Shown: positions 1,084 through 37,677 of the stretch, piece by piece
How positions within the stretch are numbered: the first letter of the stretch is position 1
How the letters are laid out: each line of letters begins with the position of its first letter
Origin: Myxococcales bacterium
Lineage (GTDB): Bacteria > Myxococcota_A > Polyangia > Polyangiales > Ga0077539
Length of the DNA: 64,000 nucleotides
Reading direction: 5' to 3'
Assembly: GCA_016792845.1 (NCBI GenBank)
Contig: JAEUKH010000035.1
Coordinates: forward strand, 1 to 64,000
Program-made: the position numbers and the translations under genes
The notes under the pieces: generated by a model
What the model was told of the DNA's origin: nothing
Databases searched by the model: none
Seen by the model: the letters and a program-made list of their open reading frames with translations, nothing else

Positions 1084-1101
1084 GCTCCCATTTCCCCCTT
1101 T

Positions 1102-1136
1102 GCGCGCCTGCCGCTCGTCTGCCGCAGGCGCGCTTT
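1102..1136 (+). terminator. Hairpin with short T-run between dnaK and groES
   Basis: A perfect 10-bp inverted repeat (GCGCGCCTGC at 1102-1111, GCAGGCGCGC at 1124-1133) encloses a 12-nt loop and is followed by TTT. It starts 19 nt after the dnaK stop, so it probably terminates or attenuates dnaK transcription before groES. The T-run is short, so read-through is likely. No CIRCE element (TTAGCACTC-N9-GAGTGCTAA) is visible in this gap. Confidence 0.65.
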
Positions 1137-1186
1137 GCTCAGCACACACACACCAAACTCCACCCTTCAACCCTAACCAAATCCAT

Positions 1187-1483
1187 ATGGCTAACGTCAA
1201 AATCAAGCCGATCGGGGACCGCGTCCTCGTCGAGCACATCGAAGAAAAAGAGCAGGTCCGCGGCGGCATCATCATCCCGGACTCCGCCAAAGAAAAGCCC
1301 CAGGAGGCGAAGGTCATCGCCCTCGGCACGGGCAAGAAGGGCGACGACGGCAAGGTCACGCCGTTCGAAGTGAAGGTCGGCGACCGCGTGCTCATCAGCA
1401 AGTACGGCGGCACCGAGGTGAAGCTCGACGAAAAGAAGTACACGCTCGTCCGCGAGGACGACATCCTCGGCGTCATCGGCTGA
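1187..1483 (+). CDS. groES: Co-chaperonin GroES
   Basis: The 98-residue product has the normal GroES length. It starts [16 protein letters not shown] and contains the mobile loop ([20 protein letters not shown]) and the C-terminal [10 protein letters not shown]. It forms the heptameric lid of the GroEL chamber. The ATG at 1187 fits the conserved N-terminus; longer upstream reading would run into the dnaK 3' region and gives no recognisable sequence. The 50 nt before the ATG are A/C-rich with no AGGAGG-like sequence, unlike most genes in this window. groEL follows 42 nt downstream, so the two probably share a transcript. Confidence 0.98.
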
Positions 1484-1525
1484 GCCGCTCCCATCACTCA
1501 ATTCTCAACTCTCCACTAGAAACAC

Positions 1526-3160
<1,635 letters not shown>

Positions 3161-3176
3161 GAGGTCTCGCCCCTCG

Positions 3177-3200
3177 CCCCTGAGCCTTCGGGCTCGGGGG
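3177..3200 (+). terminator. UUCG-capped hairpin after groEL
   Basis: A 10-bp stem (CCCCTGAGCC at 3177-3186, GGCTCGGGGG at 3191-3200, one T-G wobble) is closed by the very stable TTCG tetraloop, 17 nt after the groEL stop. No T-run follows. It is probably a strong hairpin terminator or 3'-end stabiliser for the groESL transcript. The rest of the gap up to 3398 shows nothing clear. Confidence 0.6.
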
Positions 3201-3398
3201 TCGCGCTGACGCCTCGCTCACGTCTCACCTCGGGTGGGTCGCGGGCGGGGCGTTCGCCGTTTGGGGAGCGCCGCCGGTCTCGGGCGTTGTGCCCGACGGC
3301 GCGAGAGGGCCTCGGCGGCGCGACGTGTCAGGCGGGCGCGCCTTGATGATTCGAAAGAGCACCACGGCGGGCGCCCGGTGGTTTATACCGCGCAGGTC

Positions 3399-5153
3399 AT
3401 GCGTGGCGGTTGGCGAGTCATGGCGGCGCTGCTGGTCTCTCTTGCGGGGTGTGGCGACCCTCCCGCGGTGGCGGCGCCTCCCCGCACGGTGGCGTCGGCC
3501 CGCCGTGGGAGCGCGCGGCGTCGTGGGGCTGACGCGGCGCCTCCGCAGGTTGACTCGGCCGAGCGCTGCGGCGAGGCGACCCTGCGCACCCTGGCGACGC
3601 TGCGTCGCGGGCACAGCGTGCACGGTCAGCCCTTGTGCACCGAGGTGTTCAACGGTCGCTTCGCGGTGGTGCTTGCGACGGGCAGCGAGCGCGAGGCGAG
3701 CGACGTGTGGGCGGTGTTTCACAACGGCAGCCGCGATGAGATCCACCGGGTGGGCAACTGGCCGGTGGGGGTCCGCATCGAGTTTGGGCGCATCGTTTCG
3801 GGGTGGGTGTACCTCGTGGGGCGCTCGGTGGCGCGCGAAGATCAGCCCGCCGGGGCCAAGGTGCTCGCGATCTTTCCGCTGCCGCGGCCCGGGGGCGAGG
3901 CGACCCGCATCGCGCCGCTCTCGCCGCTTGAGGCCGAGCTCTTGCGGTCGAGCGACAGCGACGACCTCGGGCGACGGCTCGGCTTCGAGGTGGCGGGCGC
4001 GAACCTCACCGAGGCCGCCGCGACGCAGACCGTGCGCAGCATCGCCGAAGGGGGGCCCAATGCGCTCTTCGAGCACCTCACGCCCGAAGGCGCGCCGACC
4101 CTCAGGGTGTGGCAAGACGGGGTGTTCCAAGAGACCGATTATGTGTCTCCGCAGGGTGACCCGACGAGCCCGCATGTGTCGCACGCGCTGACGCTGCTTC
4201 GGGCCATCGCCCAGGACATGGATTGCAGCTCCGGCGAGCGCTGCGTCGCCCGGGGCGCGCCGAACGGGGCGACGCCGCCGGAGGTGTTGCTCCGCACCGA
4301 GGGCCGGCGGGTGGTGCTCTCGGCGCTGTTGGGCTCGGTCGAGCGGGCCGTCCCGAGCGAGCCGCCGCGTGGGGGTGCGTTGCGCGAGCGGCTCGGGCAC
4401 GCCGACGACCTCGCCTTCGCCCAAGGCCTGACCCTCGACGGCGAGGTGGGCGCCGTGGTCGGCGTCGAGGCCAACAACGCGCGGCTCGTGGCCTTCACCG
4501 TGACGCACCCGAACGACACCGTCGAGACCCGCGCCTACCGGGTCACCAACGGCGAGGCCCCGCGGGCCTTCGGCGACGACTCGCTCGGTCGGGTCGACAG
4601 CCGCGAGCTTCACCTCCGCGACTACGACGGCGACGGCGGGTTCGAGCTCGTCTCGGTGGGTCGCCGCGGCGCAGAGACCGTCGTCTCGGTCAGTTCGGCC
4701 TATGCGCCCCCGCGGGTGTCGCAGCACCGCCTCGTGCATCGCCTCGACATGCTGCGCGCCGCGTTCGGCGAGCCGAGCCTCGGCACCCTCGACCAGCGGC
4801 TCCGGGGGTACGCGATCTCGCCCGCGCCCGAAGAGACCGCCTGCGCCAGCCTCGAACGCCTCGCCCAAGATGACCGCGGCGCGCGGGCCGTGCTCGGCAG
4901 CGCCCTCATGGTGATCGACTACAACGAGCGTGGGCAGCCCTTGCGGGGCACGCCTCGTCGGGTGACGGGTGCTCCCCTCACCCGCGACGTGGCGGGCCTT
5001 CTTGGGCCCTTCTCGGGTCGGCGCTGTGCCGACCTGCGGTGCAACTTCGGCCAGGCCTGGTGCCGCCCCCGGGTCGAGGGCGAAGAGGGCGTGCTGTGGT
5101 TCGGTGACGGCGGCCGACGGGTGGCCGCGATCTCGCGCTTTGTGTCGCGCTGA
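3399..5153 (+). CDS. Predicted outer lipoprotein of unknown function
   Basis: The 584-residue product starts with a short signal ending in a lipobox (LVSLAGC, Cys18), so it should be lipid-anchored and exported. An alternative ATG at 3420 would put the Cys at position 11. The body has no enzyme motif I recognise. A short Asp-rich loop, RDYDGDGGFELVSVG near residues 405-420, resembles the calcium-binding repeats of FG-GAP/VCBS beta-propeller proteins. Several Cys near the C-terminus (RRCADLRCNFGQAWC) could form disulphides. It stands alone on the plus strand and its 3' end converges on the pseudokinase gene with a 14-bp gap. Confidence 0.8.
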   Translation: MRGGWRVMAALLVSLAGCGDPPAVAAPPRTVASARRGSARRRGADAAPPQVDSAERCGEATLRTLATLRRGHSVHGQPLCTEVFNGRFAVVLATGSEREASDVWAVFHNGSRDEIHRVGNWPVGVRIEFGRIVSGWVYLVGRSVAREDQPAGAKVLAIFPLPRPGGEATRIAPLSPLEAELLRSSDSDDLGRRLGFEVAGANLTEAAATQTVRSIAEGGPNALFEHLTPEGAPTLRVWQDGVFQETDYVSPQGDPTSPHVSHALTLLRAIAQDMDCSSGERCVARGAPNGATPPEVLLRTEGRRVVLSALLGSVERAVPSEPPRGGALRERLGHADDLAFAQGLTLDGEVGAVVGVEANNARLVAFTVTHPNDTVETRAYRVTNGEAPRAFGDDSLGRVDSRELHLRDYDGDGGFELVSVGRRGAETVVSVSSAYAPPRVSQHRLVHRLDMLRAAFGEPSLGTLDQRLRGYAISPAPEETACASLERLAQDDRGARAVLGSALMVIDYNERGQPLRGTPRRVTGAPLTRDVAGLLGPFSGRRCADLRCNFGQAWCRPRVEGEEGVLWFGDGGRRVAAISRFVSR

Positions 5154-5167
5154 CCGCGGCCTGTCGC

Positions 5168-8041
5168 TCACTGCGCGTAGCGCGCGGGGCCGATCGGGAA
5201 GTAGAGCGCGAAATCCCACGCGGCGGGCGCGGGGGCGAGCAACCTGACGCTGTGGGCCACGTCTTCGAGGCAGGTGCTCACCGGGGGCTCGTTCAAAACG
5301 CCGCGGAGGCGCACCGTGCTGATGCGCACGGCGCCCGCGTTGACGTGCACGCCGACGGTCACCATGCGGGTCTCGAGGCCCTCGACGCAGTCGGCCACGC
5401 CGCGGCGCATCGACTGGAAAATCCGCTGCTTTTCAGCCGCCGGAGGCTCGGCCGAGCTCGGCGCCGGGCGCGCCGCCGCGGGGGTCGTCGGGGGCGCCAC
5501 CGCAACGACCGGAGGCGTCTGGACGGGCGGAGGGGTCACCTCGGCCGGAGGGGCCGCTGCGATGGGCGCGGGCGGAGGGGTCACCTCGGCCGGAGGGGCC
5601 GCTGCGATGGGCGCGGGCGGCGGCGCTTCGGCCGGAGGGGGCGCGGGCGGCGGCGTCTGCGGGGCTTCGACCGCGGGCGGAAGCACCACAGTCTGCGTCG
5701 GGCGCGCGGCCGCTTCGAGGAGCACCGCGTCGACCGAGCGGGCCGCGATGATGAGGCCCACGGTGGCGATCACCGCCGAGACCACGGTGGCCCCGGCGAG
5801 GAGCTGCGCGGCCCTGAGATGCTGCGCGGGGTCGCCTACGAGCGAGCTGCGCGGCGGCGCTTCGGCGGTCTCGACCGGCGCGACGCTGCGGCGGGTGGCC
5901 GGCACCGGGGTGGGGTTCTGCGGGCGCTGCGAGGGCGTCGCGAGGGGGGTGGGGACGCGGAGCGCGAGCTCTCCAGAGTTGCTGCGCTCGCGGGCGCCGG
6001 GGCGCAGCGAGGGGCCGCGTTCGGCGGGCTGCTCGGAGCTCCGGCGGGCGCCGCTGACCACAGGGAGCGACGGATCTTGCCGCGGCGGCAGCGTGTCGGG
6101 GCGCCTGGCCTCGATGCGCAGGCCGTGCTCGGACGGTTCGGCGGTGACCTGGGTGATGTCGTTGGGGTCGACCCCGAGGCTGGCCATCTGGGTGACCGCG
6201 CTGCCCTCTTCGAGGAGCGACTGCGAGAGCTCTTGAAGGGCGTCGCGGGGCGCCTCGGCCGAGGCCGCGGGGGTCGGGTCGGGGGGGCTCGGCTTGTCGC
6301 TGCCGCGGCGCACCTCTTCGCTGGCCTCGCGGTCGGCCGCCAAGGCGCTCTGGCTCAGGGCGTCGTAGGTCACCACGGGCGTGTGATCGCCCCCGAGTGA
6401 CGAGAGGTCGCTCGGCAATTTCGGCGCCCGCGGCACCACCGCCCCCGGCATCACGTCGTTGGCGACGTGAGGCACCCCCTGGAGGGTGTGACGCTTCGAT
6501 GCCACAAACTCGCCCGCGCCCGCCGGGCGCTCAGGGCTCACCGCGGGATGCACCGAGCGCGGCATCGGCGGCGGGGTCGACCGAGGCCGGTCGGGCAGCC
6601 GTGAGGGCACCAAAGGCGACCCGTGCGGGCGCGAACCCGGCGCCCTCAGCGTTTCGCGGAGGCTCGGCCGCGGGAGCGCCGACGCCGACTGCGGACCCTT
6701 CACCGCAGGCTCTGAAGGCGTCGCGGCCTGGGCGAGAGGCGCCTCGGTCGCGGCCGGGCCGGGGGGTGGGGGCGGCGCCTCGGGCTCCGAATCGCGCACG
6801 ATTTCAGCGGGCGGCGGCGCAAAATGGATGAGGTCGTCGGCCGGGAGGATGTCGACCATCGACAGACGCTCGGCGTCGGGGGCCTCGCTGACGAGCTCGA
6901 CCGCGGGCAGGGCCTCGGGGCTGGGCTCGGGGGCGGGCTCGGGGCTGGGCTCGGGGCTGGGCTCGGGCGCGGCCGTGAGGGGCTCGGGCGCGGGGGGTGT
7001 GCTGGCCGCGGGGGCGCGCGGAGGCGACGACGCGGGGGCAGCGACCGGCGACTCGAAGTCGATGAGGTCGGTGGCGCGCGGGCTCGCGAGGGCCGCGAGG
7101 GCCACGGGGTCGACGCCGAGGAGCGAGAGGCGCTCGAACGCGTCAGGGTCGAGGGCCCGGTGGAGGTCGTGGGCGAAGGCCGAGGCCGAGGTGTAGTGCT
7201 GGTGCCGGGCGACGTTCCACGCGCGGGCGAAGACGTTGTCGACGGCTTCGGGGAGGGCGGTGCGGAGGGTGTGCGCGGCCGGCAGGGTGCTGCCTCGGAG
7301 CACGGCGGCGAGCTCGTGGGCGCGCGCGGTGCCGAAGGGCGGCTTGCCCGTGAGAGCCTCGAAGGCGAGCACCGAGAGGGCGAACACGTCGACCGCAGGC
7401 CCTGCCGGAGCGACGAGCTCCTCGGGCACGAGGTACCCCGGCCGCACGAGCTCGGCGGCGGCGCGGTCGGTGATAAAGCCCGCCGAGACCAGGGCGTGGA
7501 GGTACCCGGCTTCTTCGATCCAAACGGTGAAGGGGTCGGGCTCGATCATCACCGTGTCGGGGCTGAGGGCGCGGTGCAACACCGGCGGCTCGGCGGCGTG
7601 GAGGGCGTCGAGGGCCGAGGCCAAGACGGTCACGATGCGCACGACCTCGGGCGGCGCGAGGAGCACCCCGGCGTCGATCTGTTCGCGCAGCGAGCGACCG
7701 GCGGGGCGGCGCGCGACCACGGTGGGCTGTCCGCTCTCGGCGTCGACCGCGAGCACCTCGGCGATGGCGGGGTGACGCAGCGCGCTCAGCGACGTCATGG
7801 TCTCGACGAAGGCTCGAGACGCGCGCTCAGAGCGCGCCACCATGCCGGGGTACACCGACCACACGAGGCAGGGCTCGGTGGTGGTGCCGTCGACCTGTCG
7901 GGCGAAATGGGTCGCGACGAGTCGATTGCGGCGCAAGAGCCGCTCGGGGGCGAAGCGCCCCAGCACCACCTCGCCGCGGGTTGGGTCACCGGGCGTCGAA
8001 GCGCGCGACGCCTCACCTTCGCTTGTTGCTCGTTGTGCCAT
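5168..8041 (-). CDS. Ser/Thr pseudokinase with Pro-rich linker, TM helix and C-terminal periplasmic domain
   Basis: The 957-residue product carries a protein-kinase-like domain at about residues 22-300 that keeps fold motifs (YLVPEEL for APE, DVFALSVLAFEALTGKPPF) but lacks the catalytic ones. The VAIK Lys position reads CLVWSVYPG, HRD reads HRA (HRALSPDTVMI, about residue 155) and DFG reads WIEEAG. About 450 residues of Pro/Ala/Glu-rich linker follow, then a TM helix (about 747-770), a 15-residue tandem repeat and a C-terminal domain with two conserved-looking Cys. That end recalls AgmX/PglI-type myxobacterial C-termini. The ATG at 8041 has GAGAAGG upstream. Probably a membrane-spanning scaffold or sensor, not an active kinase (inference). 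Confidence 0.85.
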   Translation of the reverse strand: MAQRATSEGEASRASTPGDPTRGEVVLGRFAPERLLRRNRLVATHFARQVDGTTTEPCLVWSVYPGMVARSERASRAFVETMTSLSALRHPAIAEVLAVDAESGQPTVVARRPAGRSLREQIDAGVLLAPPEVVRIVTVLASALDALHAAEPPVLHRALSPDTVMIEPDPFTVWIEEAGYLHALVSAGFITDRAAAELVRPGYLVPEELVAPAGPAVDVFALSVLAFEALTGKPPFGTARAHELAAVLRGSTLPAAHTLRTALPEAVDNVFARAWNVARHQHYTSASAFAHDLHRALDPDAFERLSLLGVDPVALAALASPRATDLIDFESPVAAPASSPPRAPAASTPPAPEPLTAAPEPSPEPSPEPAPEPSPEALPAVELVSEAPDAERLSMVDILPADDLIHFAPPPAEIVRDSEPEAPPPPPGPAATEAPLAQAATPSEPAVKGPQSASALPRPSLRETLRAPGSRPHGSPLVPSRLPDRPRSTPPPMPRSVHPAVSPERPAGAGEFVASKRHTLQGVPHVANDVMPGAVVPRAPKLPSDLSSLGGDHTPVVTYDALSQSALAADREASEEVRRGSDKPSPPDPTPAASAEAPRDALQELSQSLLEEGSAVTQMASLGVDPNDITQVTAEPSEHGLRIEARRPDTLPPRQDPSLPVVSGARRSSEQPAERGPSLRPGARERSNSGELALRVPTPLATPSQRPQNPTPVPATRRSVAPVETAEAPPRSSLVGDPAQHLRAAQLLAGATVVSAVIATVGLIIAARSVDAVLLEAAARPTQTVVLPPAVEAPQTPPPAPPPAEAPPPAPIAAAPPAEVTPPPAPIAAAPPAEVTPPPVQTPPVVAVAPPTTPAAARPAPSSAEPPAAEKQRIFQSMRRGVADCVEGLETRMVTVGVHVNAGAVRISTVRLRGVLNEPPVSTCLEDVAHSVRLLAPAPAAWDFALYFPIGPARYAQ
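5525..5621 (-). repeat. 45-bp tandem repeat inside the pseudokinase gene
   Basis: Two near-identical 45-bp units start at 5531 and 5576, with partial copies at the flanks. They encode the 15-residue repeat PPAEVTPPPAPIAAA in the periplasmic Pro-rich stalk. Such repeats expand and contract by slippage, so copy number may vary between strains. Confidence 0.85.
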
Positions 8042-8364
8042 TGGCTCTGCACCTTCTCGCTTGCCTGCGCCGACCGTCGGAAATCGACCCGCGCCCCCCG
8101 CGAACGGGGCGTGCACGAGGCGGCCCGCAGCCGCGATGGTAGCCCGCCCCAGGGCGCCCTCGCACAATGCCCGACAGAAAGACTTATGGAGGCACACTGT
8201 AGGGCGGCCTCCATCATTCTTGATGGGCAGAAAGTGGCCTTTTTCGGGGTCTGGCGCCAATGCCGACCGGTCGGGTGTTGGCTTGCCCGGCGCATTCGAT
8301 GGAAGCGCGCGACAATGTAGCGACTTTCGGGTGAAGCGGCCGGGTCGTGACGAGGGGGTTGGCG
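8042..8364. other. 323-bp divergent intergenic region with one inverted repeat
   Basis: This gap separates the pseudokinase (minus) from the outer-membrane protein gene (plus) and must hold both promoters. The clearest structure is the 8-bp inverted repeat at 8186-8214, listed separately. A Shine-Dalgarno sequence (GAGGGGG, 8352-8358) precedes the plus-strand ATG at 8365. I see no convincing -35/-10 pair and no small gene. Confidence 0.6.
8186..8214. promoter_or_regulatory. Inverted repeat, candidate operator
   Basis: ATGGAGGC (8186-8193) and GCCTCCAT (8207-8214) are perfect 8-bp arms around a 13-nt spacer, mid-way between two divergent genes. The position fits a repressor or activator site. 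No transcription-factor family is assigned. Confidence 0.35.
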
Positions 8365-9543
8365 ATGCTCACGGGGTGGCACAGGGTTGGCGCGGCCGTC
8401 GCCGTGATGGGGGCCGGGGTGCTCGGCGGAGCTCCGGGATGGGCCGACGAGCCCTCGGCGATGACGGCGGGGGTCGCGGCCTCGGCGGGCGTGGCGTCGG
8501 GGGCGGGTTTGGCGTCGGGGCGGGCGCTGCGGCTCGATCTGCGGGCGGGGGTGGCGGTGTCGCCGAGCGTGTCGCTCGACGCGCGGTTGGGGTTCGGGCG
8601 GAGGGTCCAGCGCGAGGGCCCCGGGCAGACGACGACGGAGTTGGGCCTCGGGGTGTCGTGGCGTCCGCGGTGGGGTGATGGGGCGCGGGGGTTGTTGGAG
8701 CTTGGCGCGGGGCTGAGCCTCGCGGGTGACACCCGGCGCTTGGGAGTCAACGCCGCGCTGGGCGTGCTCTGGTCAGCCGGGAGCGGCGTCTGGGCCGGGC
8801 CCGCGTTGCGGTACGTTCACCGTGTCGAGCCCGACGTTCTTGACGGCGGCGCGTCGCAGCAACCCGAAGACGCGCGGGCGGTGACCTTGGGCCTGGTGTT
8901 GCACTTCGACGGGCTCGGCGAGACGGCGCCGCAGCGGGCGAGGCTCCCGACGGTGGCGGCGCCCGAAGCGGGCGGGGGCGACCGCGACGACGACGGCGTG
9001 GCCGACCGCGAGGATCTCTGTCCGGCCCTCGCGGCGGGGGCGACGGCGGATGCGCGACGGGCGGGGTGTCCGGCCAGCGACGTCGACGGCGACGGGTTTT
9101 GGGACGCCGACGATCGCTGCCCCATGGTGGCGGGTCGCGACGCGGGCTGCCCGCTGCGCGACTACGACGGCGACGGGGTGGGCGACGCGGTCGACCAGTG
9201 CGTCACGGTGGCGGGCCTCGCGGCGCATCAGGGTTGCGCGCCGCCGGTTCGTGCGACGGTGAGCGCCGCGCTCGCGACGGTGCGCTTTCTGCGGGGCCAC
9301 GACCGCATCGTCGGTCGGGTGAGCTTTTCAGCTCTCGACGCCGCGGCCGCGCAGCTGCGGGCCGAGGGCGGGCGCGCGGTGCTGGTCGGCGGGCGCGTCG
9401 CGGGTGAACCCCCGGGCCTCGCGGCGTCACGGGCGCTGCGCGTGAGGGCCTATCTCACCGAGGTCGGGGTGGGCGCCGCGCGGGTCGAGGTGGCGCCGCG
9501 GATCGCCGACGAGGCCGTCGTCGAGGTCACCGTCTCGCGCTGA
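8365..9543 (+). CDS. Outer-membrane protein with thrombospondin type 3 repeats and degenerate OmpA-like end
   Basis: The 392-residue product starts at the ATG at 8365, which has a good GAGGGGG 6 nt upstream, and has a signal peptide likely cut after Ala27. Residues about 30-200 have alternating hydrophobic residues and Gly, like a small beta-barrel. Three Asp-rich calcium-binding thrombospondin type 3 repeats follow (DRDDDGVADREDLCP, DVDGDGFWDADDRCP, DYDGDGVGDAVDQC). The last 100 residues resemble an OmpA-like peptidoglycan-binding domain only weakly, and its usual motif (NxxLSxxRA) is not clear. Likely an envelope structural protein. Confidence 0.8.
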   Translation: MLTGWHRVGAAVAVMGAGVLGGAPGWADEPSAMTAGVAASAGVASGAGLASGRALRLDLRAGVAVSPSVSLDARLGFGRRVQREGPGQTTTELGLGVSWRPRWGDGARGLLELGAGLSLAGDTRRLGVNAALGVLWSAGSGVWAGPALRYVHRVEPDVLDGGASQQPEDARAVTLGLVLHFDGLGETAPQRARLPTVAAPEAGGGDRDDDGVADREDLCPALAAGATADARRAGCPASDVDGDGFWDADDRCPMVAGRDAGCPLRDYDGDGVGDAVDQCVTVAGLAAHQGCAPPVRATVSAALATVRFLRGHDRIVGRVSFSALDAAAAQLRAEGGRAVLVGGRVAGEPPGLAASRALRVRAYLTEVGVGAARVEVAPRIADEAVVEVTVSR

Positions 9544-9624
9544 GCACGGCGGCTGCATTGCGCTCACCAAGACCGCCTCCGTCGGGAACTTTCCCATGGA
9601 CCGCGCGTCGGAGTGAGACCGCCG

Positions 9625-11409
9625 ATGTTTCAAGCGCGCCCCCACGCAGAGCACGCACGGTTTCGTGCACGGTTGCAGCGCCTCTCGGCCGCGGTCGCGT
9701 CGCAGCGCCTCGGGGTCTACGCGCTCTCGGGTCTCGCCGCGGGCGCCTCGCTCGGGGCGCTCGGTGCGGCGGCGATGTGGCTGGTGAGACGCGCTACGTG
9801 GGTCGCTCTGCCCACGGTGTGCGGGGCGCTCGGCGCGCTGCTGGGCCTCGCGATCGGGCACCGTCGCCAGTGGTCGTTGGTGACCCTCGCCCAGGTCATC
9901 GATGCGCGCTACGGCTTGCCCGAGACCGTCTCGGTGGCCGCGTCGGTCGCGCCCGAGCACCGCGCCGCGCCGCTCTTCTTCGCCGCCGCGAACGAGGCGC
10001 TGCGGGGCGTCGAGGCGCGCGCCTTGAGGCCTGCGCTGCGACCGTGGCACGGGCTCGCCTTGGGGGCGTTGGGTGTACAGCTCGGCCTCGCGGCGGCGCG
10101 TGGTGGCGCGGCGGCGCACGCGCCCTCGGTCACCGAGGCCGCAACGGTTCGGCTCACCGAGATCGAGCTCCCGAGCCTTCGTGCGGTCGCGCGCCTCTCC
10201 GTACTTCGGAGCGGCGACCCTCGGCGCGACGCTCAGCTCGCCCGCATCGCCGACACCGCGCGAAGGCTCCGCGCCGAGGCCCCGCGGGGCGTCGACCCCC
10301 GGGCCGCCCTCCGCACCCTCGACGCGCTCTCGGCGCAGCTCGAAGCCGAGCGTGAAGGCCGCGCCGCGCTCGACCGCGCCGCGGGGCTCGAACGCGCCGC
10401 CCAACGGCTCGCAGCGGCGGGCTTTCCGGAGGCCGCAGAGGCGCTCCGGGCGCACGATTGGGCGGGCCTCGACCGGCAGCTCGACCAACTCGCCGACGCC
10501 CGCGAGGCGCGCGACCGGGCGCGGGCCCGCGAGGCGCTCTCAGACGCCGCCGCGCAGCTGAGCGACCCCGCGCTCGCCGAGGCGCTCAACGACGAGGCCG
10601 ACCTCCTGCGGCAGCGGGCCGATCGGAACAGCTTGCTGCGACAGCTCTCAGAGGCCCTGGGGGAAGATCCCGCGGTTCAGCGCGCGGCCGAGCATCTCGC
10701 GCGGCGCGGCGACGCGGAGGCCGCCCGAGACCTCGCAGCGAGGCTCGAAGCTGCCCTCGCGGGGCTCTCGGCGAGCGAGCGGGAGCGGCTCACTGAGCGG
10801 TTGCGGCGCGAGGCCACGCGGGCTGAGGGGCTCTCGCGCTTCGAAGAGTCAGCGTCGACGGCGGCGCTGATGAGCCCCGAGGCGCTGCTCGAAACGCTGA
10901 GAGCCCTCGCCCAAAGCGCTGACCCGCCGTTTGACGAGCCGCGCGAAGACGGAGCGACCGCAGACGAGCGCCCCGGCGCGATGCCCTGGCCTACGCTCCA
11001 ACGCGGCGGCACCCGCGCGATGCGTCGTCAGGCCGCGCTCGACGCCGCGCAGGCGGGCGTGTCGGCGGCGCGCGAGGCCGTCGAAGGCCAGGGCGGCGGG
11101 GGCGAGGGCGGGGGCGGCGGCGAGGGCGGGGGCGGCGGCGGGCGCGGCGGCGGCGCGGCGGGGCACGAGGGGCGCACCGACGCGGTGAGCGCAGAGAGCT
11201 TTCGGGCGCGGGTGACCGGGCGGCTTCACCGCGGCGGATCGGGCCTCGGGCAAGCCGCGGGCACACAGCGCGGGCGCGCGGGCGGCGTGGCCTCAGCGAC
11301 CCGGAGCGACGCGCCCGAGGGGGCGACGCCGGCGGCGCTCCGGGGGGTCGAGGTGAGCGAGATCCCGGCGTCGTACCGCGCGCATGTTCAACGGTATTTC
11401 GAGCCCTAA
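9625..11409 (+). CDS. Two-TM, long alpha-helical membrane protein (DUF4175-like), first gene of the MoxR operon
   Basis: The 594-residue product has two hydrophobic helices near the N-terminus (about residues 30-55 and 58-78), then DARYGLPETVSVAA, similar to the start of DUF4175-type proteins. A long Ala/Arg/Glu-rich, probably coiled-coil region (about 180-430) follows, then a Gly-rich hinge and a short conserved-looking end (EVSEIPASYRAHVQRYF). I chose the ATG at 9625, with GGAG about 11 nt upstream, over a GTG at 9613. The MoxR ATPase gene starts 15 nt after its stop. DUF4175-like proteins often accompany MoxR/DUF58/vWA genes, which supports a shared envelope role. Confidence 0.8.
   Translation: MFQARPHAEHARFRARLQRLSAAVASQRLGVYALSGLAAGASLGALGAAAMWLVRRATWVALPTVCGALGALLGLAIGHRRQWSLVTLAQVIDARYGLPETVSVAASVAPEHRAAPLFFAAANEALRGVEARALRPALRPWHGLALGALGVQLGLAAARGGAAAHAPSVTEAATVRLTEIELPSLRAVARLSVLRSGDPRRDAQLARIADTARRLRAEAPRGVDPRAALRTLDALSAQLEAEREGRAALDRAAGLERAAQRLAAAGFPEAAEALRAHDWAGLDRQLDQLADAREARDRARAREALSDAAAQLSDPALAEALNDEADLLRQRADRNSLLRQLSEALGEDPAVQRAAEHLARRGDAEAARDLAARLEAALAGLSASERERLTERLRREATRAEGLSRFEESASTAALMSPEALLETLRALAQSADPPFDEPREDGATADERPGAMPWPTLQRGGTRAMRRQAALDAAQAGVSAAREAVEGQGGGGEGGGGGEGGGGGGRGGGAAGHEGRTDAVSAESFRARVTGRLHRGGSGLGQAAGTQRGRAGGVASATRSDAPEGATPAALRGVEVSEIPASYRAHVQRYFEP
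11093..11160 (+). repeat. Gly/Glu low-complexity tract within the DUF4175-like gene
   Basis: Almost pure GGC/GGG/GAG codons encode a Gly-rich hinge with single Glu and Arg insertions. It is a slippage-prone, extremely GC-rich stretch. Confidence 0.8.
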
Positions 11410-11424
11410 GCGGAGACCCAGCTG

Positions 11425-12459
11425 ATGACCGACGACGCGACCTTGCAGGCAGAGCTTGAACACGCGCGGGCCTCGCTCACGCGGCTCCGCGAAGCGGTGG
11501 GGCAGGTGATCGTAGGGCAGCGCGACACCGTCGACGCGGTGCTCGCGGCCTTGATCGCCGACGGGCACGTCTTGCTGGAGGGGGCTCCGGGGCTCGGCAA
11601 GACGCTGCTCGTGCGCACCCTCGCGGCGGCGCTCGCGCTGCAATTCGGGCGGGTTCAGTTCACCCCCGACCTCTTGCCGAGCGACATCGTGGGCACGCAG
11701 GTGATGCACACCGGGCCCGAGGGCGCGCGCACCTTCGGGGTGCACGAGGGGCCGATCTTCTGCAACTTGCTCCTCGCAGACGAGATCAACCGCGCGTCGC
11801 CGCGCACGCAGTCTGCGCTGCTTGAGGCGATGCAAGAGCGCGCCGTGACCCTCGGCGGGCGGCAGCGCGCGCTCGGCCGCCCCTTCCTCGTGCTCGCGAC
11901 CGAGAACCCCATCGAGATGGAGGGAACCTACCCCTTGCCCGAAGCCCAGCTCGATCGTTTTCTCTTCAAAATCACGGTAAACGAGCCCGACGAAGACGAG
12001 CTCGTCGCGGTGCTGCGGGCGACCACCGGGGCCGCGACGACGCCCCCCGCGCCGGTGCTCGACGCCGAAGGGCTCTTGGCGCTCCAGCGGCTCTGTCGCG
12101 GCGTCGAGGTGATCGAGCCGGTGGCCCGCTATGCGGCGCGGCTCGTGCGCGCGAGCAACCCCGCGGGCGCCGACTGTCTCGCGTCGCTGCGCGGGGCGCT
12201 CCGCTTCGGCGCGGGGGTGCGCGGCGCGCAGTCTTTGATCGTAGGGGCCAAGGCCTTCGCGCTCATCGACGGCCGGTACCACGTCGCGTACGACGACATC
12301 GCGCGGGTCGCGAAGCTGTGCCTCGCGCATCGCATCCACCGCAGCTTCGAGGCCGAGCGCGAGGGCATGCGCCCCGAGCACATCGTCGACACGTTGCTCC
12401 GCGGCGTCGCGCGTCACGACGCGGCGGTCGATGCGGCGCTTCGGGAGCCGCGCCGATGA
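11425..12459 (+). CDS. MoxR-family AAA+ ATPase
   Basis: The 344-residue product matches MoxR ATPases in length and motifs: Walker A GAPGLGKT (residues 53-60), Walker B with sensor context LLADEINRASPRTQSALLEAM, and the sensor segment LVLATENPIEMEGTYPLPEAQLDRFLF. MoxR proteins are cytoplasmic chaperone-like ATPases that act with DUF58 and von Willebrand A proteins to activate or assemble complexes at the membrane. Here the partners are encoded downstream (DUF58 at 16430, vWA proteins at 17308 and 19164). The stop overlaps the next start as ATGA, so translation is probably coupled. The specific client is unknown. Confidence 0.95.
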   Translation: MTDDATLQAELEHARASLTRLREAVGQVIVGQRDTVDAVLAALIADGHVLLEGAPGLGKTLLVRTLAAALALQFGRVQFTPDLLPSDIVGTQVMHTGPEGARTFGVHEGPIFCNLLLADEINRASPRTQSALLEAMQERAVTLGGRQRALGRPFLVLATENPIEMEGTYPLPEAQLDRFLFKITVNEPDEDELVAVLRATTGAATTPPAPVLDAEGLLALQRLCRGVEVIEPVARYAARLVRASNPAGADCLASLRGALRFGAGVRGAQSLIVGAKAFALIDGRYHVAYDDIARVAKLCLAHRIHRSFEAEREGMRPEHIVDTLLRGVARHDAAVDAALREPRR

Positions 12460-31978: not shown

Positions 31979-32350
31979 TCAGTAGCCGCCCACCCGGACG
32001 GCGCCCGACACGCCCATGCCGCCGCCGCCGACGTAAACACCCGACGAGGCCGCGGGGGCCACATAGGCCGGGCGCGCATACACCGGCGCCGGGGCTGCGT
32101 ACGCGGGCTGGGCGTACACCGTCGAGGTCTGCACGAAGGGCGCGTTGCGGTAGTAGTACCCGGGGCGGTAGTACGCGTTGTTGTAGTAGCCGCCGTTGTA
32201 ATACACGGTGTTCGGCTGGGCGTAGTTGGTGTAGCCGTAGGTGGTGCCGTAAGCCGGGCGGGCCGCGACCACACAGCCGCCGAGCGCAAGCGCGCCAAGG
32301 GCGGTCACAGCGAGGAGACTGGCGACACGGGCGAGAGCGGTCTTCTTCAT
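31979..32350 (-). CDS. Small Tyr/Ala/Pro-rich lipoprotein
   Basis: The 123-residue product has a lipoprotein signal (ALALGGC, Cys26) and a mature part made largely of Tyr, Asn, Ala, Pro and Gly (YTNYAQPNTVYYNGGYYNN, then AAPAPVYARPAYVAP), ending in a Gly-rich tail. The composition suggests an unstructured surface or periplasmic protein; no enzymatic motif. A candidate promoter with an inverted repeat lies just upstream, with the -10 so close that the transcript could be nearly leaderless. Confidence 0.8.
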   Translation of the reverse strand: MKKTALARVASLLAVTALGALALGGCVVAARPAYGTTYGYTNYAQPNTVYYNGGYYNNAYYRPGYYYRNAPFVQTSTVYAQPAYAAPAPVYARPAYVAPAASSGVYVGGGGMGVSGAVRVGGY

Positions 32351-32357
32351 GGCGCAA

Positions 32358-32410
32358 ACCCTAACACCCCCGAAGTTGACGAGCAATCGCCGGGCCGCCC
32401 CTTCGGGGGT
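32358..32410 (-). promoter_or_regulatory. Candidate promoter and 10-bp inverted repeat upstream of the Tyr-rich lipoprotein
   Basis: Perfect arms ACCCCCGAAG (32366-32375) and CTTCGGGGGT (32401-32410) are separated by 25 nt. On the minus strand a weak promoter, TTGCTC (-35) and TAGGGT (-10, 32358-32363) with 17-nt spacing, has one repeat arm inside its spacer, as an operator would. The predicted start of transcription falls within a few bases of the ATG at 32350. Confidence 0.35.
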
Positions 32411-32544
32411 CGCGAAGGGCCCGGGCGTTGATGAGCAGGTGGCGTACTTACGACGCGCCCCTGGTAAAGCTTTCACCCCGTGTCGAATTTTCTCTCGCCG
32501 GGTCGTTCTTGCCTCGACCAGAGCCGCACGCTATCACGCGGCCG

Positions 32545-33492
32545 ATGAGTGCGACGACGCCCGGGTCGGACGTAGAGTCTCTCCGCCTCCGGGCTGAGCA
32601 GGCGCTCGGGGCGGCGCGACCCAAAGAGCAGGTCTGTCGGCTCCTCGAAGACCTCGCCGCGCGGGCCCCCGAGGCGAGCCAGGCGGCTTGCTTCGCGCAT
32701 CGAAACCTAGCCGAGCTGAGGCTCCAAGAGAGCCCCTGGGCGGCGGCGCTACACCTCCGGAAGCTGCTCGCGGTCGACCCCGACGACGACATCGGGCACG
32801 CCCTCATGGGGCTCAGCCAGGCGCTCCAGGGGCACTACAAAATGGCCGTCGCGTCGTTCCGCCGCGCGGTGAGCCTCAGCCCGTCGAACCCTTGGTACCG
32901 GCACAACCTCGGGCACCTGCTCGATGTGGCCCTCGACAACCCCTCCGAGGCGCTCCAGCACCTTCGCCGGGCGCACCGGGCCGAGCCCTTCCAAGAAGAG
33001 GTCGGCGCCTCCCTCGCGCATTGTTTGGGGCGCTTGGGTGAGTGCGCCGAGGCCCTCTCGCTCGCCCATGCGCTGCTCGAAAAGCACCCGGGCCACCGCG
33101 ACCTGCGGCTGCTCGTCGACTGGCTCGAAAAGGGCGCCCCCGCCCGCAACCGCAGCGCCCCCCGGGCGCCCATGGTTCAGACCCTCGCGACCCAGCCCGC
33201 GCCCGAGCTCGGCCCCCTCGAATCGGCCCTCGCGGTGCGGCTCGAACGCGCTGAGACCCCCCGCGCGATGGCCCCGGCCCTGGGCGTGCTCTGGCGCAAG
33301 GTGCTCGACGCCGGGCTCGCCCGCGAGAAGCTGCCGCCCGCGGCCTGGGTCGCCGCCATGGTCTACGCCCTTGAGCGACACAAACCGGGTGCCCGTCGAC
33401 AGCGCGAGCTCGCACAACTGTTCGGCGTCGGCATCAGCGCCATGACCGGCAGGTACCAGTCGCTCAAGACCCTCCTCCGAGACGGCGGGTGA
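32545..33492 (+). CDS. TPR protein with C-terminal helix-turn-helix-like region
   Basis: The 315-residue product has no signal peptide. Residues about 10-195 are TPR-type helices (AACFAHRNLAELRLQESPWAA, HYKMAVASFRRAVSLSPSN). After a variable linker the last 90 residues (AAWVAAMVYALERHKPGARR, then RELAQLFGVGISAMTGRYQSLK) resemble the cyclin-like/TFIIB or DUF6398-type helix-turn-helix in pattern. It may therefore bind DNA or a partner (inference). I chose the ATG at 32545; a longer reading to 32428 is possible. A palindrome directly overlaps its stop codon. Confidence 0.75.
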   Translation: MSATTPGSDVESLRLRAEQALGAARPKEQVCRLLEDLAARAPEASQAACFAHRNLAELRLQESPWAAALHLRKLLAVDPDDDIGHALMGLSQALQGHYKMAVASFRRAVSLSPSNPWYRHNLGHLLDVALDNPSEALQHLRRAHRAEPFQEEVGASLAHCLGRLGECAEALSLAHALLEKHPGHRDLRLLVDWLEKGAPARNRSAPRAPMVQTLATQPAPELGPLESALAVRLERAETPRAMAPALGVLWRKVLDAGLAREKLPPAAWVAAMVYALERHKPGARRQRELAQLFGVGISAMTGRYQSLKTLLRDGG

Positions 33493-33515
33493 TGTTCACA
33501 GCGTGAACATTGTCA
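33490..33515. promoter_or_regulatory. 19-bp palindrome between convergent stop codons (copy 1 of a recurring motif)
   Basis: ATGTTCAC (33492-33499), AGC, GTGAACAT (33503-33510) is a perfect 8-bp inverted repeat. It sits exactly between the TGA of the TPR gene (33490-33492) and the TGA of the convergent cytochrome gene (33513-33515). The same sequence class occurs at 59097-59115 and 62568-62586. It has no T-run, so it may be a protein-binding site or a bidirectional hairpin. Confidence 0.6.
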
Positions 33516-34721
33516 CGGGCAGCGGAGCCTGAGGCTCTCGATGTCGTCGTGGCACTGGGCGCAGGGGCGCTCGTTGGCGCGGAGCATCGCGCCGCAGCGT
33601 GCCGCGAAGCCGGGCCCGTGCGGGTTGAAGCCCCCTCCGCCGCGCGGCAACGTGGCGTGGCAGGTGACGCAGTCGCGCTCGCTGTGACAGCTCACGCATT
33701 GGGTCATGGCCCGTCGCGCCTCGACGCCGTGGTGGCGCGGGCCGACGACGCGGGCGCTCCAGACCTCGGGGGGCGGGTGGATGCGCTCGCTCGTACGACC
33801 GGCCGGAGAGGCCCCTGCGCCGACCCCCGCGCGGTCGTGGCAGGCGACGCAGAAGCTCGCCGTGCGGTGGCAGCTCGTGCAGCGGTCGGCCGCGAGGCGC
33901 GCCTCGGCGGGGTGCTGGGTGAGGTAGTCGTTGGGGTGCGTCCGTCGGTCGCGCATGCGGCCGTCGTGGCACTCGGTGCACTGCTCGTCGCGGTGACAGA
34001 CCGTGCAGCGGGCGGCGTCTCGCGCGGCGGCGGCCCGATGGTTGAACCAGAAATCAGCGTCGTGGTGGAGCGCCGGGAGAAGCGTCTCGGGCGGGTTCAT
34101 GCTCGCCTCGGCGAAGCGCGTGATGAGCTGCCCGGTGGGCTCCGTGAGGTGGCAGAGCGCGCAGCGGCCCCGGGGCGTCTGGAGCGTGTGACAGCGCACG
34201 CACTGCTCCATCGTCGGGAGCTCAAGGCGCGTGGCCATGCCCACGTTGACCACGTTGGCGTGACAGTCGACGCAGCGCTGGCCCTGCGAAACGTGGGCGG
34301 CGTGCGAGAAGTGCAGGTTGCTCGGCCCGATGTCGACCCGCGCGATTCTCAGCGGTTGCCGCGGGTCGAAGCCCTCGTGGCACCCGTCGCAGCGCGCGAC
34401 CCCTTGGCCCGCCGCGACGGCCTTCTCGGGCTGACGCCTGTCGATGGCGTGGCAGGGCCGACAGCTCGCCTCGGGGGGCGTGAGGCGGTCGCTTACCGAA
34501 GTGCTTCCTGAAGCGTTGGTGTGGCACGACTCGCAGCGCACGCCGGGCATCGCGAGGTGCCGTCGGTGGTCGAAGCGAAGCGGCAGCGCCTGGGTCGGAT
34601 AGATCGCATACGAAGGCACGCGGACCCGCGGTTGCGGAGCGGTGCGCTGCGGCTGCGCGGTCACCGCACCGGCCAACGCGGCGAGCCCGAGCCCCAAAGC
34701 CCATCGAAGCATCGCGCGCAT
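33513..34721 (-). CDS. Periplasmic 13-haem cytochrome c
   Basis: The 402-residue product has a signal peptide (cleavage near AVTAQP) and thirteen CxxCH haem-binding motifs, from CESCH near residue 60 to CAQCH near the end. Several are preceded by the FDHRRHL/FSHAAHV type of segment that supplies the distal His in c7/NrfB-like modules. It should mature in the periplasm through the cytochrome c maturation system. Its ATG overlaps the stop of the upstream barrel gene as TGATG, so the two are translationally coupled. This fits an MtrA/OmaB-like role, carrying electrons through the partner porin. Confidence 0.93.
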   Translation of the reverse strand: MRAMLRWALGLGLAALAGAVTAQPQRTAPQPRVRVPSYAIYPTQALPLRFDHRRHLAMPGVRCESCHTNASGSTSVSDRLTPPEASCRPCHAIDRRQPEKAVAAGQGVARCDGCHEGFDPRQPLRIARVDIGPSNLHFSHAAHVSQGQRCVDCHANVVNVGMATRLELPTMEQCVRCHTLQTPRGRCALCHLTEPTGQLITRFAEASMNPPETLLPALHHDADFWFNHRAAAARDAARCTVCHRDEQCTECHDGRMRDRRTHPNDYLTQHPAEARLAADRCTSCHRTASFCVACHDRAGVGAGASPAGRTSERIHPPPEVWSARVVGPRHHGVEARRAMTQCVSCHSERDCVTCHATLPRGGGGFNPHGPGFAARCGAMLRANERPCAQCHDDIESLRLRCP

Positions 34722-36169
34722 CAGAATGGCCCCCGAAGCGAGAGAACGCCCATCGCCCGCACGCGATGACCGACGACCTTGTTCATGTCATCTTCGAGGG
34801 CGACGCTGAGGTCGGCGAGCGCGTTGATGCGCACGAGCACCGCGGCCACGACGCCGAGGCTCGCCACCTGGCGTTGGCTCCGCAAGGTGTCGTCAGAGTA
34901 CCAGAGCGACAGCCCCAGTTCGGCCCGCACGCGCCCCGGGCGGAGCCACCAGCGGCCCCCGAGGTCGCCGCCCGTGCGAAGCGCCACGTCGCCGTACTCG
35001 CCCACCGCGCGGAGCCACGCGTCGCCGCGCGGCCGTCGGAGCTGCAAGGCCGCGGTGACGCCGCCCGCGTAGCGCCCCTGGTCGGCCTCGGGTTGAGCGT
35101 CGCCCTCGCGGAGCGTCGCGTCGAGCGCATAGCGTCGACCCAGGACCGAAGCGACCAGGGTGAAACCGCCGCCGAGGGCGCGCTCGGCGTGAAGCCGGAG
35201 GTCGTCGGTGGGGTCGATCCAGAACGATGACCAGATCGCGCTGAGGTCGAAGGTGGGGCGCGAACGCGAGAGCTCGACCCCGAGCACGCCGCGGCCCGGC
35301 CAACGGCGTTCGAGGGCCAGCGAGGCCCAGGCGAGGCGACGCTCGGCGACGCTCAGAACGCCCTCGGTGTTGAGCCGAAACCCGCGCCCCAAGGCGAGGT
35401 CGACGATCACCCCGGCCTTCTCTTCGACCACGCCCGCGCGGCTCTCGGTGCGGCGCCAGCTCGCCCGGGCTTCGAGGCGACCGCCGCCGTGGTAGTCAAC
35501 GCTCGCCCCCACGAGCCAGGCCGCGCGACGGTCTTCGACCCAGGGCGCGAGGGTTTGATCCCACCCGGTGCGGTCGACGAACTGGAGCCCGTCGCGCGAA
35601 AATCGCCCGTTTGACAGCGGAAAGCCCGCCCGCGTCTCTAGCCCCCCGAGCGCCTCCACCGACACCCGCTCGCCCACATGGACCCGCGCCCGCGCGCCGT
35701 CAAAGAGGAGCATCCCGAGGGGGTCGAACACCCACTGCCGCCCCACCCTCAGATCGAGGGCCCCGCCCGCGAGGTGATCGACGTCGAGGTAGGCCCAAGG
35801 CAGGTCGAGCGCGCGGCGCGCGAAGAGGGGCGTAAACTCCGTGGCCCGGGCGCGGTTGACCTCGTCGAGGCACTGCGCCGTGCCGGGGTCGCACGCCGTA
35901 CCAAAATCGCTGTCAATTCGCAGTCTTGCGCGAAGCGTGAGGCGCCATCCGTGGCGGTCTCGGCTCGCGTCGTATCCCGAGAGCGTGAGGGTCTGGGTCA
36001 CCCGACGAAACGAAAGCACCGACGCCCCGAGCGGCCCCCGGAGCTGATAGCTCTGTCCGAGGGTCTCGGCCCGCACCTCGGCCTCGAGGGCCCGGGCCTC
36101 ACCCGTGACGAGGGCCGCGGCCCCGAAGAGCGCCCCCGCGCGCGCCCTCGACGCACCCCGCCCTCGCAT
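34721..36169 (-). CDS. Outer-membrane beta-barrel, probable porin partner of the 13-haem cytochrome
   Basis: The 482-residue product has a signal peptide (cleavage near ARALEAE) and then continuous alternating amphipathic beta-strands with paired charged and aromatic residues (WRLTLRARLRID, LDLRVGRQWVFDP, GFTLVASVLGRRYAL). It ends in Phe, the classic barrel-assembly signal. Length is close to the Geobacter Omb porins (about 435 residues) and shorter than Shewanella MtrB (known sizes). Coupling by TGATG to the cytochrome gene supports a porin-cytochrome complex. No extracellular OmcB/MtrC-like cytochrome gene is adjacent. The ATG at 36169 is immediately preceded by an in-frame GTG. Confidence 0.82.
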   Translation of the reverse strand: MRGRGASRARAGALFGAAALVTGEARALEAEVRAETLGQSYQLRGPLGASVLSFRRVTQTLTLSGYDASRDRHGWRLTLRARLRIDSDFGTACDPGTAQCLDEVNRARATEFTPLFARRALDLPWAYLDVDHLAGGALDLRVGRQWVFDPLGMLLFDGARARVHVGERVSVEALGGLETRAGFPLSNGRFSRDGLQFVDRTGWDQTLAPWVEDRRAAWLVGASVDYHGGGRLEARASWRRTESRAGVVEEKAGVIVDLALGRGFRLNTEGVLSVAERRLAWASLALERRWPGRGVLGVELSRSRPTFDLSAIWSSFWIDPTDDLRLHAERALGGGFTLVASVLGRRYALDATLREGDAQPEADQGRYAGGVTAALQLRRPRGDAWLRAVGEYGDVALRTGGDLGGRWWLRPGRVRAELGLSLWYSDDTLRSQRQVASLGVVAAVLVRINALADLSVALEDDMNKVVGHRVRAMGVLSLRGPF

Positions 36170-36193
36170 CACTCCCCCATCAGGCGCGAGCGA

Positions 36194-36664
36194 TCACGAG
36201 AGGTCGCTGACGCGCTGACCGCCGAAGCGCGCGATCAGCTGGTCGTCGTAGTGGTCGGCCACCGCGCCCACGCGCTGAATGAGGTGCTCGACCTCGGCCG
36301 GTTCGAGGTCGGTGCTGCGGCGCTCGGCGAGCACCACCACGCGGTCGTGCAAGAGCCCGAAGGCCAGCGGGCCCATCCCCTGCGCGTTGAGCTCAAGGAG
36401 CCGACGAAACAGCGCCGCCTCCTGGGCCGCGTCGATCTTGACGATGGGCGCCACCACCCGCAGCTGCGGCGCGTCTTCGCCCTCGCGGGGATTGCGCAAG
36501 AACACCGCCACCGCGGCGCTGCCGCGCATGAGCGACCAGCCTCGGCCGATGCCGCCCGGCGGGTCGAGCTTGACCGCCTCGGGGTCGACCCCCAACTGTC
36601 GAATGGTCTTCTCAATCAGCCCGACGGCCCGCTCAAACTCGACCGTGATTGTCTCTTCGCTCAC
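36194..36664 (-). CDS. YbjN/CesT-like protein
   Basis: The product of about 156 residues (VSEETITVEFERAVGLIEKT onward) has the mixed alpha/beta pattern of the YbjN/type III chaperone-like family, for example GSAAVAVFLRNP, RRLLELNAQGMGPLAFGLLHDRVVVLAERR. These small cytoplasmic proteins act as sensors or chaperones and have no enzyme activity I can assign. The start is decided by the ribosome site: GGAGG touches an ATG at 36670 but stands 6 nt before a GTG at 36664, so I prefer the GTG. Confidence 0.8.
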   Translation of the reverse strand: MSEETITVEFERAVGLIEKTIRQLGVDPEAVKLDPPGGIGRGWSLMRGSAAVAVFLRNPREGEDAPQLRVVAPIVKIDAAQEAALFRRLLELNAQGMGPLAFGLLHDRVVVLAERRSTDLEPAEVEHLIQRVGAVADHYDDQLIARFGGQRVSDLS

Positions 36665-36683
36665 TCGCATCCTCCAGCGCTGG

Positions 36684-36718
36684 GGCGCGATTCGGCACCC
36701 TGCGCCGGGCCCTGTCAA
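36684..36718 (-). promoter_or_regulatory. Candidate sigma70-type promoter for the YbjN-like gene
   Basis: On the minus strand a perfect -35 TTGACA (36713-36718) in the context GCTTGACAG is followed after 17-18 nt by a weak -10 (CCGAAT/CGAATC). The same GCTTGACAG context occurs in the fab-cluster promoter at 57611-57639, which supports it. Confidence 0.35.
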
Positions 36719-36765
36719 GCACGAGCGAGTGGGAGCCCGCAGGCCGAACGTGCTAAGGCGCGGCG

Positions 36766-37677
36766 ATGCAGACGGTGAGGCTCGTGGTGCGCTACGACGG
36801 CGCACACTTCGCGGGGTGGCAGCGGCAGCGCGGGGTCGCGACCGTGCAAGAGGCCCTCGAAGACGCCGTCGCGACGATGGTGGGTGAGCGGGTCACGGTG
36901 CGGGGCGCCGGGCGCACCGACGCAGGGGTCCACGCGCTCGCTCAGGTGGCGGCGTTTCATTCGCCGCGGGCGATTCACGCCCGGGGGTGGCGCTTGGGTC
37001 TGACCTCGCGGCTCCCGCCCACCGTGGCGGTCACCGACGCGCGCGAGGCGCAGCCTGATTTTGACCCGCGTCGGGCCTCGGCCGGCAAGCGCTACCGGTA
37101 CCTCTTGCACCTCGGGCCGATTCGAGACCCGATGCTCCACCAGCGGGCATGGCACATCCACGGCAAGCTCGATCTTGAAAAGCTGCGCAACGAGGCCGCC
37201 CACCTCGTGGGGACGCACGATTTCAGCGCCTTCCGCGCCTCAGACTGCGAGCGCGACACCACCACGCGGACGCTCTTCCGGGTGGCCCTCGTCGAGGGCT
37301 TCATGGGGCGCGACGACCTCGTCGCCGTCGAGGTCGAGGGTACGGCTTTTCTCAAGAACATGGTGCGCGTGATCGTGGGCACCCTGGTCGACGTCGCGCG
37401 CGACCGCCTCGCCCCCGGCACCGTCGTCGCCCGCTTCGCCGACGGCGACCGCACCCTCGCGGGAATCACCGCCCCGGCCGAAGGTTTGTACCTCGACGAG
37501 GTCTGGCTCCACCCCCAATGGCGCCTCGCCGACGACGTGCTCAACCTCCGGCCCGCCTACGCCGAACCCTTGATCGCCGCGCGCCTGCAGGCCCTCGGCG
37601 CCGACCCTCGGGGCCTCTCGGGCGACCCCATGGTCGAAGCCGCCTTCGAGGGCCCCCGCACCGGAGAGACCGAATGA
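36766..37677 (+). CDS. truA: tRNA pseudouridine synthase A
   Basis: The 303-residue product has the TruA catalytic motif AGRTDAGVHA with the nucleophilic Asp52 (equivalent to Asp60 in E. coli), plus YDGAHFAGWQRQ at the start, GKRYRYLL and the later FLKNMVRVIVGTLVDV. It converts U38-40 in the anticodon stem of tRNAs to pseudouridine. It is about 30 residues longer than E. coli TruA, with the extra sequence at the C-terminus. It heads a three-gene set: the next ATG overlaps its stop. Confidence 0.96.
   Translation: MQTVRLVVRYDGAHFAGWQRQRGVATVQEALEDAVATMVGERVTVRGAGRTDAGVHALAQVAAFHSPRAIHARGWRLGLTSRLPPTVAVTDAREAQPDFDPRRASAGKRYRYLLHLGPIRDPMLHQRAWHIHGKLDLEKLRNEAAHLVGTHDFSAFRASDCERDTTTRTLFRVALVEGFMGRDDLVAVEVEGTAFLKNMVRVIVGTLVDVARDRLAPGTVVARFADGDRTLAGITAPAEGLYLDEVWLHPQWRLADDVLNLRPAYAEPLIAARLQALGADPRGLSGDPMVEAAFEGPRTGETE

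Follow-up and report, generated by a model that had tools for sequence, protein, structure and literature searches.

A barrel gene coupled to a 13-haem cytochrome gene in Myxococcota: a probable trans-outer-membrane electron conduit with a modular 6+7-haem plan

Conduits composed of an outer-membrane porin and a multihaem cytochrome are known chiefly from work on metal-respiring or iron-oxidising bacteria. Shi et al. (2014) described two-gene clusters in Anaeromyxobacter (Group IV) and Kuenenia, in which a porin gene is paired with the gene for a 12–14-haem cytochrome and no outer cytochrome gene is present (PMC4245776). The extra haems of the Anaeromyxobacter and Kuenenia clusters have been argued to be able to span the membrane, the Ignavibacterium cytochrome contains 14 haems, and the Pcc porins are predicted to have 18–22 strands (PMC4245776). 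Myxococcota metagenome-assembled genomes (MAGs) in general have likewise been observed to encode secreted multihaem proteins (PMC11495043).

The DNA analysed here, called the window throughout, is a 64-kb stretch from a Myxococcales bacterium. A sequence-only reading had reported in it a 482-residue barrel protein and a cytochrome with thirteen CxxCH motifs, translationally coupled by TGATG; both genes are indeed found on the minus strand (Table 1), the stop codon of the barrel gene and the start codon of the cytochrome gene overlapping in that motif at 34721, with one base in common. An alternative GTG start at 36172 would extend the barrel protein to 483 amino acids. The CxxCH motifs of the cytochrome are located at residues 63, 87, 111, 150, 174, 187, 239, 248, 281, 291, 342, 351 and 387. 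The barrel protein ends in Phe (...LSLRGPF), as had been claimed, but this is not a trait of the family, the relatives ending in K, R, P, L and other residues. That no outer cytochrome gene adjoins the pair was also correct: the window contains no further CxxCH gene.

Table 1. Coordinates of the pair, its modules, the upstream gene and the lipoprotein genes discussed in the text.
Feature	Sequence	Position	Strand	Details and basis
Outer-membrane beta-barrel gene	window	34721..36169	-	482 aa from ATG; ORF list
13-haem c-type cytochrome gene	window	33513..34721	-	402 aa, N-terminal signal peptide; ORF list
N-terminal hexahaem module, residues 23-200	window	34122..34655	-	ActA/QrcA/c7-like; phmmer, hmmsearch, NCBIfam, Foldseek, ligand map
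C-terminal heptahaem module, residues 205-402	window	33516..34109	-	Ligand map; half found alone with barrel in distant lineage
YbjN/TY-Chap1-like gene	window	36194-36805	-	203-aa ORF, 22 bp upstream of barrel gene
YbjN/TY-Chap1-like region, C-terminal ~157 aa	window	36194..36667	-	Pfam PF22551, E 2.6e-14
Relocated lipoprotein	source genome, G000:C4	126716-127408		Motif CGASPCH; also listed as L233:9392-10522 (G000:C4)
Giant lipoprotein	L213, distant Myxococcota	5581-11104		26 CxxCH
Giant lipoprotein	L214, distant Myxococcota	5782-11767		34 CxxCH
Giant lipoprotein	L217, distant Myxococcota	38-6502		28 CxxCH

The predicted barrel is supported by an AlphaFold2 model built from a 53-row alignment (pLDDT 89.2, pTM 0.81), in which 22 long strands extend over residues 28–478, a number within the 18–22 of the Pcc porins. 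In the same model the strands follow the signal peptide, and no domain ahead of strand 1 is able to plug the lumen. Foldseek searches with the model returned ushers and OprD-type porins, which are large open barrels, at low TM-scores (at most about 0.48); we therefore regard the protein as a barrel of this kind to which no solved structure is closely related. Its sequence has no match in Pfam, NCBIfam or PDB, none of 53 relatives matched the MtrB/PioB model of Pfam, and seven of them gave a weak match with the generic OMP_b-brl model. The source genome has no MtrB/PioB match above cut-off, and the cytochrome matches neither the MtrA chain in PDB nor the NCBIfam decahaem model.

The MtrB/MtrA or OmbB/OmaB layout attributed to the locus thus stands as regards the pairing of a barrel gene with a cytochrome gene and falls as regards MtrB/PioB or MtrA family membership. 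The HMM comparison with the MtrA/B and PioA/B families, which the sequence-only reading had named as a check, yielded no match; since that test failed (MtrB_PioB: PF11854 and NCBIfam) and the cytochrome carries 13 CxxCH motifs and is not a decahaem protein, we rejected MtrAB or PioAB identity. The haem count does differ from the 8–10 of the best-studied conduits, as had been pointed out, but the count alone is not new because pairs with 12–14 haems and no outer-cytochrome gene were already described (PMC4245776).

The cytochrome is matched by the Pfam model Cytochrome_C7 (PF14522) above its cut-off, and its N-terminal half by QrcA of NCBIfam with an E-value of 1.7e-10, short of the model cut-off. 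Its N-terminal six-haem stretch (residues about 40–190) aligns with ActA structures (E 8e-10 for the single sequence with phmmer; 3e-17 for the profile with hmmsearch), and a Foldseek search with the model of this module finds ActA by fold (6btm/8k9e). The structure prediction is confident only in the N-terminal half, the signal peptide and the C-terminus; poor prediction of the rest of the C-terminal half is expected because haems are absent from the prediction. Nevertheless, the cytochrome is not an ActA or QrcA subunit: the similarity is confined to the N-terminal half, the genes for the partners in those complexes are not adjacent, and the single-copy cytochrome gene has only one other match in the source genome, a genuine ActA gene elsewhere (G000:C50).

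The division into two modules is seen in a ligand map based on an alignment of 46 order-level, 19 far and four very distant 13- or 12-haem proteins with seven seven-haem proteins. All 13 CxxCH motifs are kept in 46/46 order-level sequences and in the 19 far relatives. Haems 1–6 are accompanied by the invariant H52, H140 and H143 and the near-invariant H55 and M171, while haems 7–13 are accompanied by exactly seven invariant distal histidines (220, 228, 262, 270, 315, 331 and 368). Since seven conserved extra His residues thus match seven haems, all haems of the C-terminal half are probably bis-His ligated, judging from conservation, and this half would form a heptahaem wire; it also has a conserved Cys pair (376/401). 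The persistence of the motifs in the order-level and far sequences, together with the recurrence of the gene overlap (see below), indicates that the 13-motif pair is not a chance occurrence. Some matches contain an apparently internal TAG, for which recoding was considered and rejected, this TAG being the gene's own stop codon, immediately behind the last CxxCH. At four loci of the window's family (L037–L040), the 13-haem proteins begin with a lipobox-like sequence (LGAACG, LALAACAS), unlike the window copy, and these proteins may be lipid-anchored.

A barrel homologue occurs in 98 out of 145 genomes of the order. Starting from the barrel, HMM searches over all ORFs of this high-GC DNA revealed a homologous multihaem cytochrome gene directly 3′ on the same strand at all 40 loci fetched, at least 37 of these cytochromes having 13 CxxCH motifs and the remainder 12. 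When the window is included (41 pairs), 36 show a start–stop overlap, 30 of them at −4 and six at −1. Conversely, a cytochrome-first scan of GTDB genomes revealed the barrel gene directly 5′ in 78 of the 80 loci kept, the other two lying near a contig edge; 77 of the 80 cytochromes have 13 CxxCH motifs (the two sets of loci overlap in some genomes). Of 20 further loci from elsewhere in the phylum, in different orders and classes, 19 have the barrel gene and the twentieth lies at a contig edge. Homologues encoded apart and not co-occurring had been named as an outcome that would speak against the conduit; to the contrary, on contigs long enough for both genes the pair is never split. The other such outcome, a barrel model that does not accommodate the cytochrome, finds no support in the large, unplugged barrel. 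Amongst the named carriers are Sorangium cellulosum, Polyangium, Minicystis rosea, Labilithrix, Sandaracinus and a MAG filed as Nannocystis. In a tree of the C-terminal half, sequences from one host family cluster together and that of the window falls within the clade of its own family (100/98 for seven rows); this grouping is consistent with vertical inheritance.

Four gene arrangements can be distinguished. In the first, typical for most of the order, the barrel and 13-haem cytochrome genes are followed within roughly 3 kb by a lipoprotein gene whose product combines an Ig-like domain (PF13205) with a PSCyt1-like region, the latter having a conserved Met-Pro and a single haem-type motif, CX2CH or, more often, CX4CH; this lipoprotein was matched at 91 of the loci examined. 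The second is that of the window's family, where the lipoprotein gene never adjoins the pair and one copy is located elsewhere in 10/10 good genomes, including the source genome (Table 1). The outer cytochrome of most Pcc clusters is missing from the window, and in this family no gene of that kind lies beside the pair; a candidate surface partner, the lipoprotein whose gene adjoins the pair in most of the order, is relocated here. A conserved 84-aa ORF lies 5′ of the relocated lipoprotein gene and accompanies the lipoprotein across the order too.

In the third arrangement, found in f29, a distant lineage, and on one occasion in f57, the barrel is paired with a seven-haem protein that corresponds to the C-terminal half only. 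These seven-haem versions (L203–L207, L220 and L221) are mostly start–stop coupled to the barrel, and several have lipoboxes. That the barrel and the heptahaem half occur alone together points to the C-terminal half as the barrel's partner within the cytochrome; by the tree of that half, the N-terminal hexahaem module has apparently been lost more than once. In the fourth arrangement (f27 and f31), the gene for a giant multihaem lipoprotein abuts or overlaps the barrel gene on its 5′ side and the 13-haem gene follows; by gene content and order, the three loci of this kind in Table 1 are likely complete three-part conduits of the classical Pcc layout.

The YbjN/TY-Chap1-like gene upstream of the barrel gene in the window is likely in the same operon as the pair. 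It sits beside the barrel gene at 34 of 155 loci, being kept there across the window's family and also in certain further families of the order, and beyond it the genes are on the plus strand. On the other side of the pair, just downstream of the cytochrome gene, a small Tyr/Ala/Pro-rich lipoprotein (VAARPAYGTTYGYTNY...) is encoded at 31979-32476 on the minus strand. The TPR gene at 32428-33492 on the plus strand was discarded as a part of the system, its CcmH-like TPR match being weak and generic. Elsewhere in the source genome, a pentahaem protein with a MYXO-CTERM-like tail is encoded at G000:C18:70339-70815 (L244), and pentahaem proteins that resemble lipoproteins on contigs C17, C19 and C56; all are candidates for surface cytochromes. 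The genome also includes Alternative Complex III (ACIII) with an adjoining oxidase operon, and three cytochrome c assembly homologues, while a search of it found no NapC/NirT-type quinol dehydrogenase.

The pair thus very probably forms an electron conduit of the Pcc type across the outer membrane, distinct in sequence from MtrAB: next to the gene for a porin-like barrel lies, in conserved adjacency and with the TGATG overlap, that of an exported cytochrome whose 13 haems are within the 5–14 of Pcc-type partners. The barrel, with its 22 predicted strands and open lumen, would be placed in the outer membrane and the cytochrome exported to the periplasm, where the heptahaem C-terminal half, either threaded into the barrel or docked against it, would form the wire across the membrane. 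The ActA/c7-like hexahaem half would reach into the periplasm and trade electrons with carriers that the quinol pool supplies, possibly by way of Alternative Complex III. At the surface, electrons would be handed to or received from an outer lipoprotein, in a direction that the sequence does not fix; this lipoprotein would be the giant multihaem protein in the distant relatives and the Ig-like protein with a single haem motif in most of the order. For the window pair, the surface partner is probably the relocated Ig-like lipoprotein or one of the pentahaem lipoprotein or MYXO-CTERM proteins.

What such a conduit would serve is a further matter. Sorangium and Polyangium, both well-known carriers, are aerobic soil bacteria, so that respiration with acceptors outside the cell is no obvious use of the conduit. 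It is possible, although we lean slightly against it, that the pair has a non-respiratory task at the cell surface, such as assimilatory Fe(III) reduction, redox balance at low oxygen or the feeding of extracellular oxidative enzymes in predation or polymer attack; it is single-copy and vertically inherited in lineages that include those aerobes, and its usual neighbour encodes only a one-haem-motif lipoprotein, but no enzyme of a pathway of this kind is consistently linked with it. Inward transport, by which the periplasm would receive electrons from Fe(II), Mn(II) or organic donors outside the cell as proposed for PioAB and MtoAB, appears unlikely: PioAB, MtoAB and some Fe(II)-oxidising mtr clusters are likewise devoid of an outer cytochrome (PMC4245776, PMC7096707), and the oxidase operon next to ACIII in the source genome would suit such a flow, yet there is no MtrB/PioB or MtrA/MtoA homology, and the distant relatives have surface lipoproteins of 26–34 haems, as metal reducers do. 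Both alternatives are themselves kinds of conduit, so that their probabilities overlap with that of the main reading. Separate functions of co-transcribed genes, one for a porin specific to some substrate and the other for a soluble multihaem protein of the periplasm that stores electrons or works with ACIII, are improbable: the N-terminal module does resemble periplasmic ActA/c7 cytochromes and the complex of barrel and cytochrome is a proposed one, but this explanation fits poorly with adjacency and coupling that are universal over the phylum in four gene arrangements and with the reduction of one of these to the barrel and heptahaem half, and the barrel lacks a plug and matches no substrate-specific porin family.

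Within the conduit reading, we tentatively propose, with somewhat less than even confidence, a Myxococcota-wide family with a modular 6+7-haem wire, vertically inherited in aerobic predatory and saprophytic myxobacteria. In this family the component at the surface (a lipoprotein with 26–34 haems, an Ig-like one bearing a single CX2-4CH motif, or no such gene within the operon) would have been swapped repeatedly and the role would be one of housekeeping, not anaerobic metal respiration.

No description of the pair was found in open-licence literature on Sorangium, Polyangia, Myxococcales, Myxococcota or myxobacteria in connection with porin–cytochrome or multihaem topics, nor are these taxa mentioned in the main text of Garber 2024. 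In particular, we came across no earlier account of a 13-haem family spanning the order, of its module plan and changing outer partners, or of its occurrence in Sorangium, Polyangium and their relatives. The interest of the pair lies in this host range and in the modular natural variants, not in the haem number. Its presence is unexpected because Sorangium and Polyangium are familiar as soil bacteria that respire oxygen, and a single-copy, coupled and ligand-invariant pair in most of an order to which these genera and Minicystis belong raises the question of the purpose of outer-membrane electron transfer there; the cultivated carriers provide culturable hosts for testing. The lineages with seven or 13 haems, and those that have or lack a giant outer cytochrome, amount to natural truncation experiments on the membrane-spanning part of the wire.

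Amongst known systems, ActA of Alternative Complex III and QrcA are alignable with the N-terminal six-haem stretch, but the cytochrome described here has seven further haems, the ACIII or Qrc partner genes are not adjacent to it and the true ActA is encoded elsewhere. MtrAB, PioAB and MtoAB similarly consist of a co-encoded barrel and periplasmic multihaem cytochrome, in PioAB and MtoAB likewise without an outer cytochrome, but have 26–28 strands and 10 haems as compared to 22 and 13. OmbB-OmaB-OmcB of Geobacter sulfurreducens likewise combines a porin-like barrel and, adjacent to it, a multihaem cytochrome of the periplasm, and the distant relatives of the window pair add an outer multihaem lipoprotein; OmaB, however, has eight haems, the gene for the outer 12-haem cytochrome is missing here, and the pair has no NCBIfam or PDB match with that system. 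The two-gene Pcc clusters of Anaeromyxobacter, a member of the same phylum, and Kuenenia are alike in having a porin-like gene, a periplasmic 12–14-haem cytochrome and no outer cytochrome gene; compared by description only, their cytochromes measure 338–344 amino acids, whereas the one in the window has 402 amino acids, 13 haems and the 6+7 plan. Finally, the present pair is distributed order-wide and not in known metal reducers.
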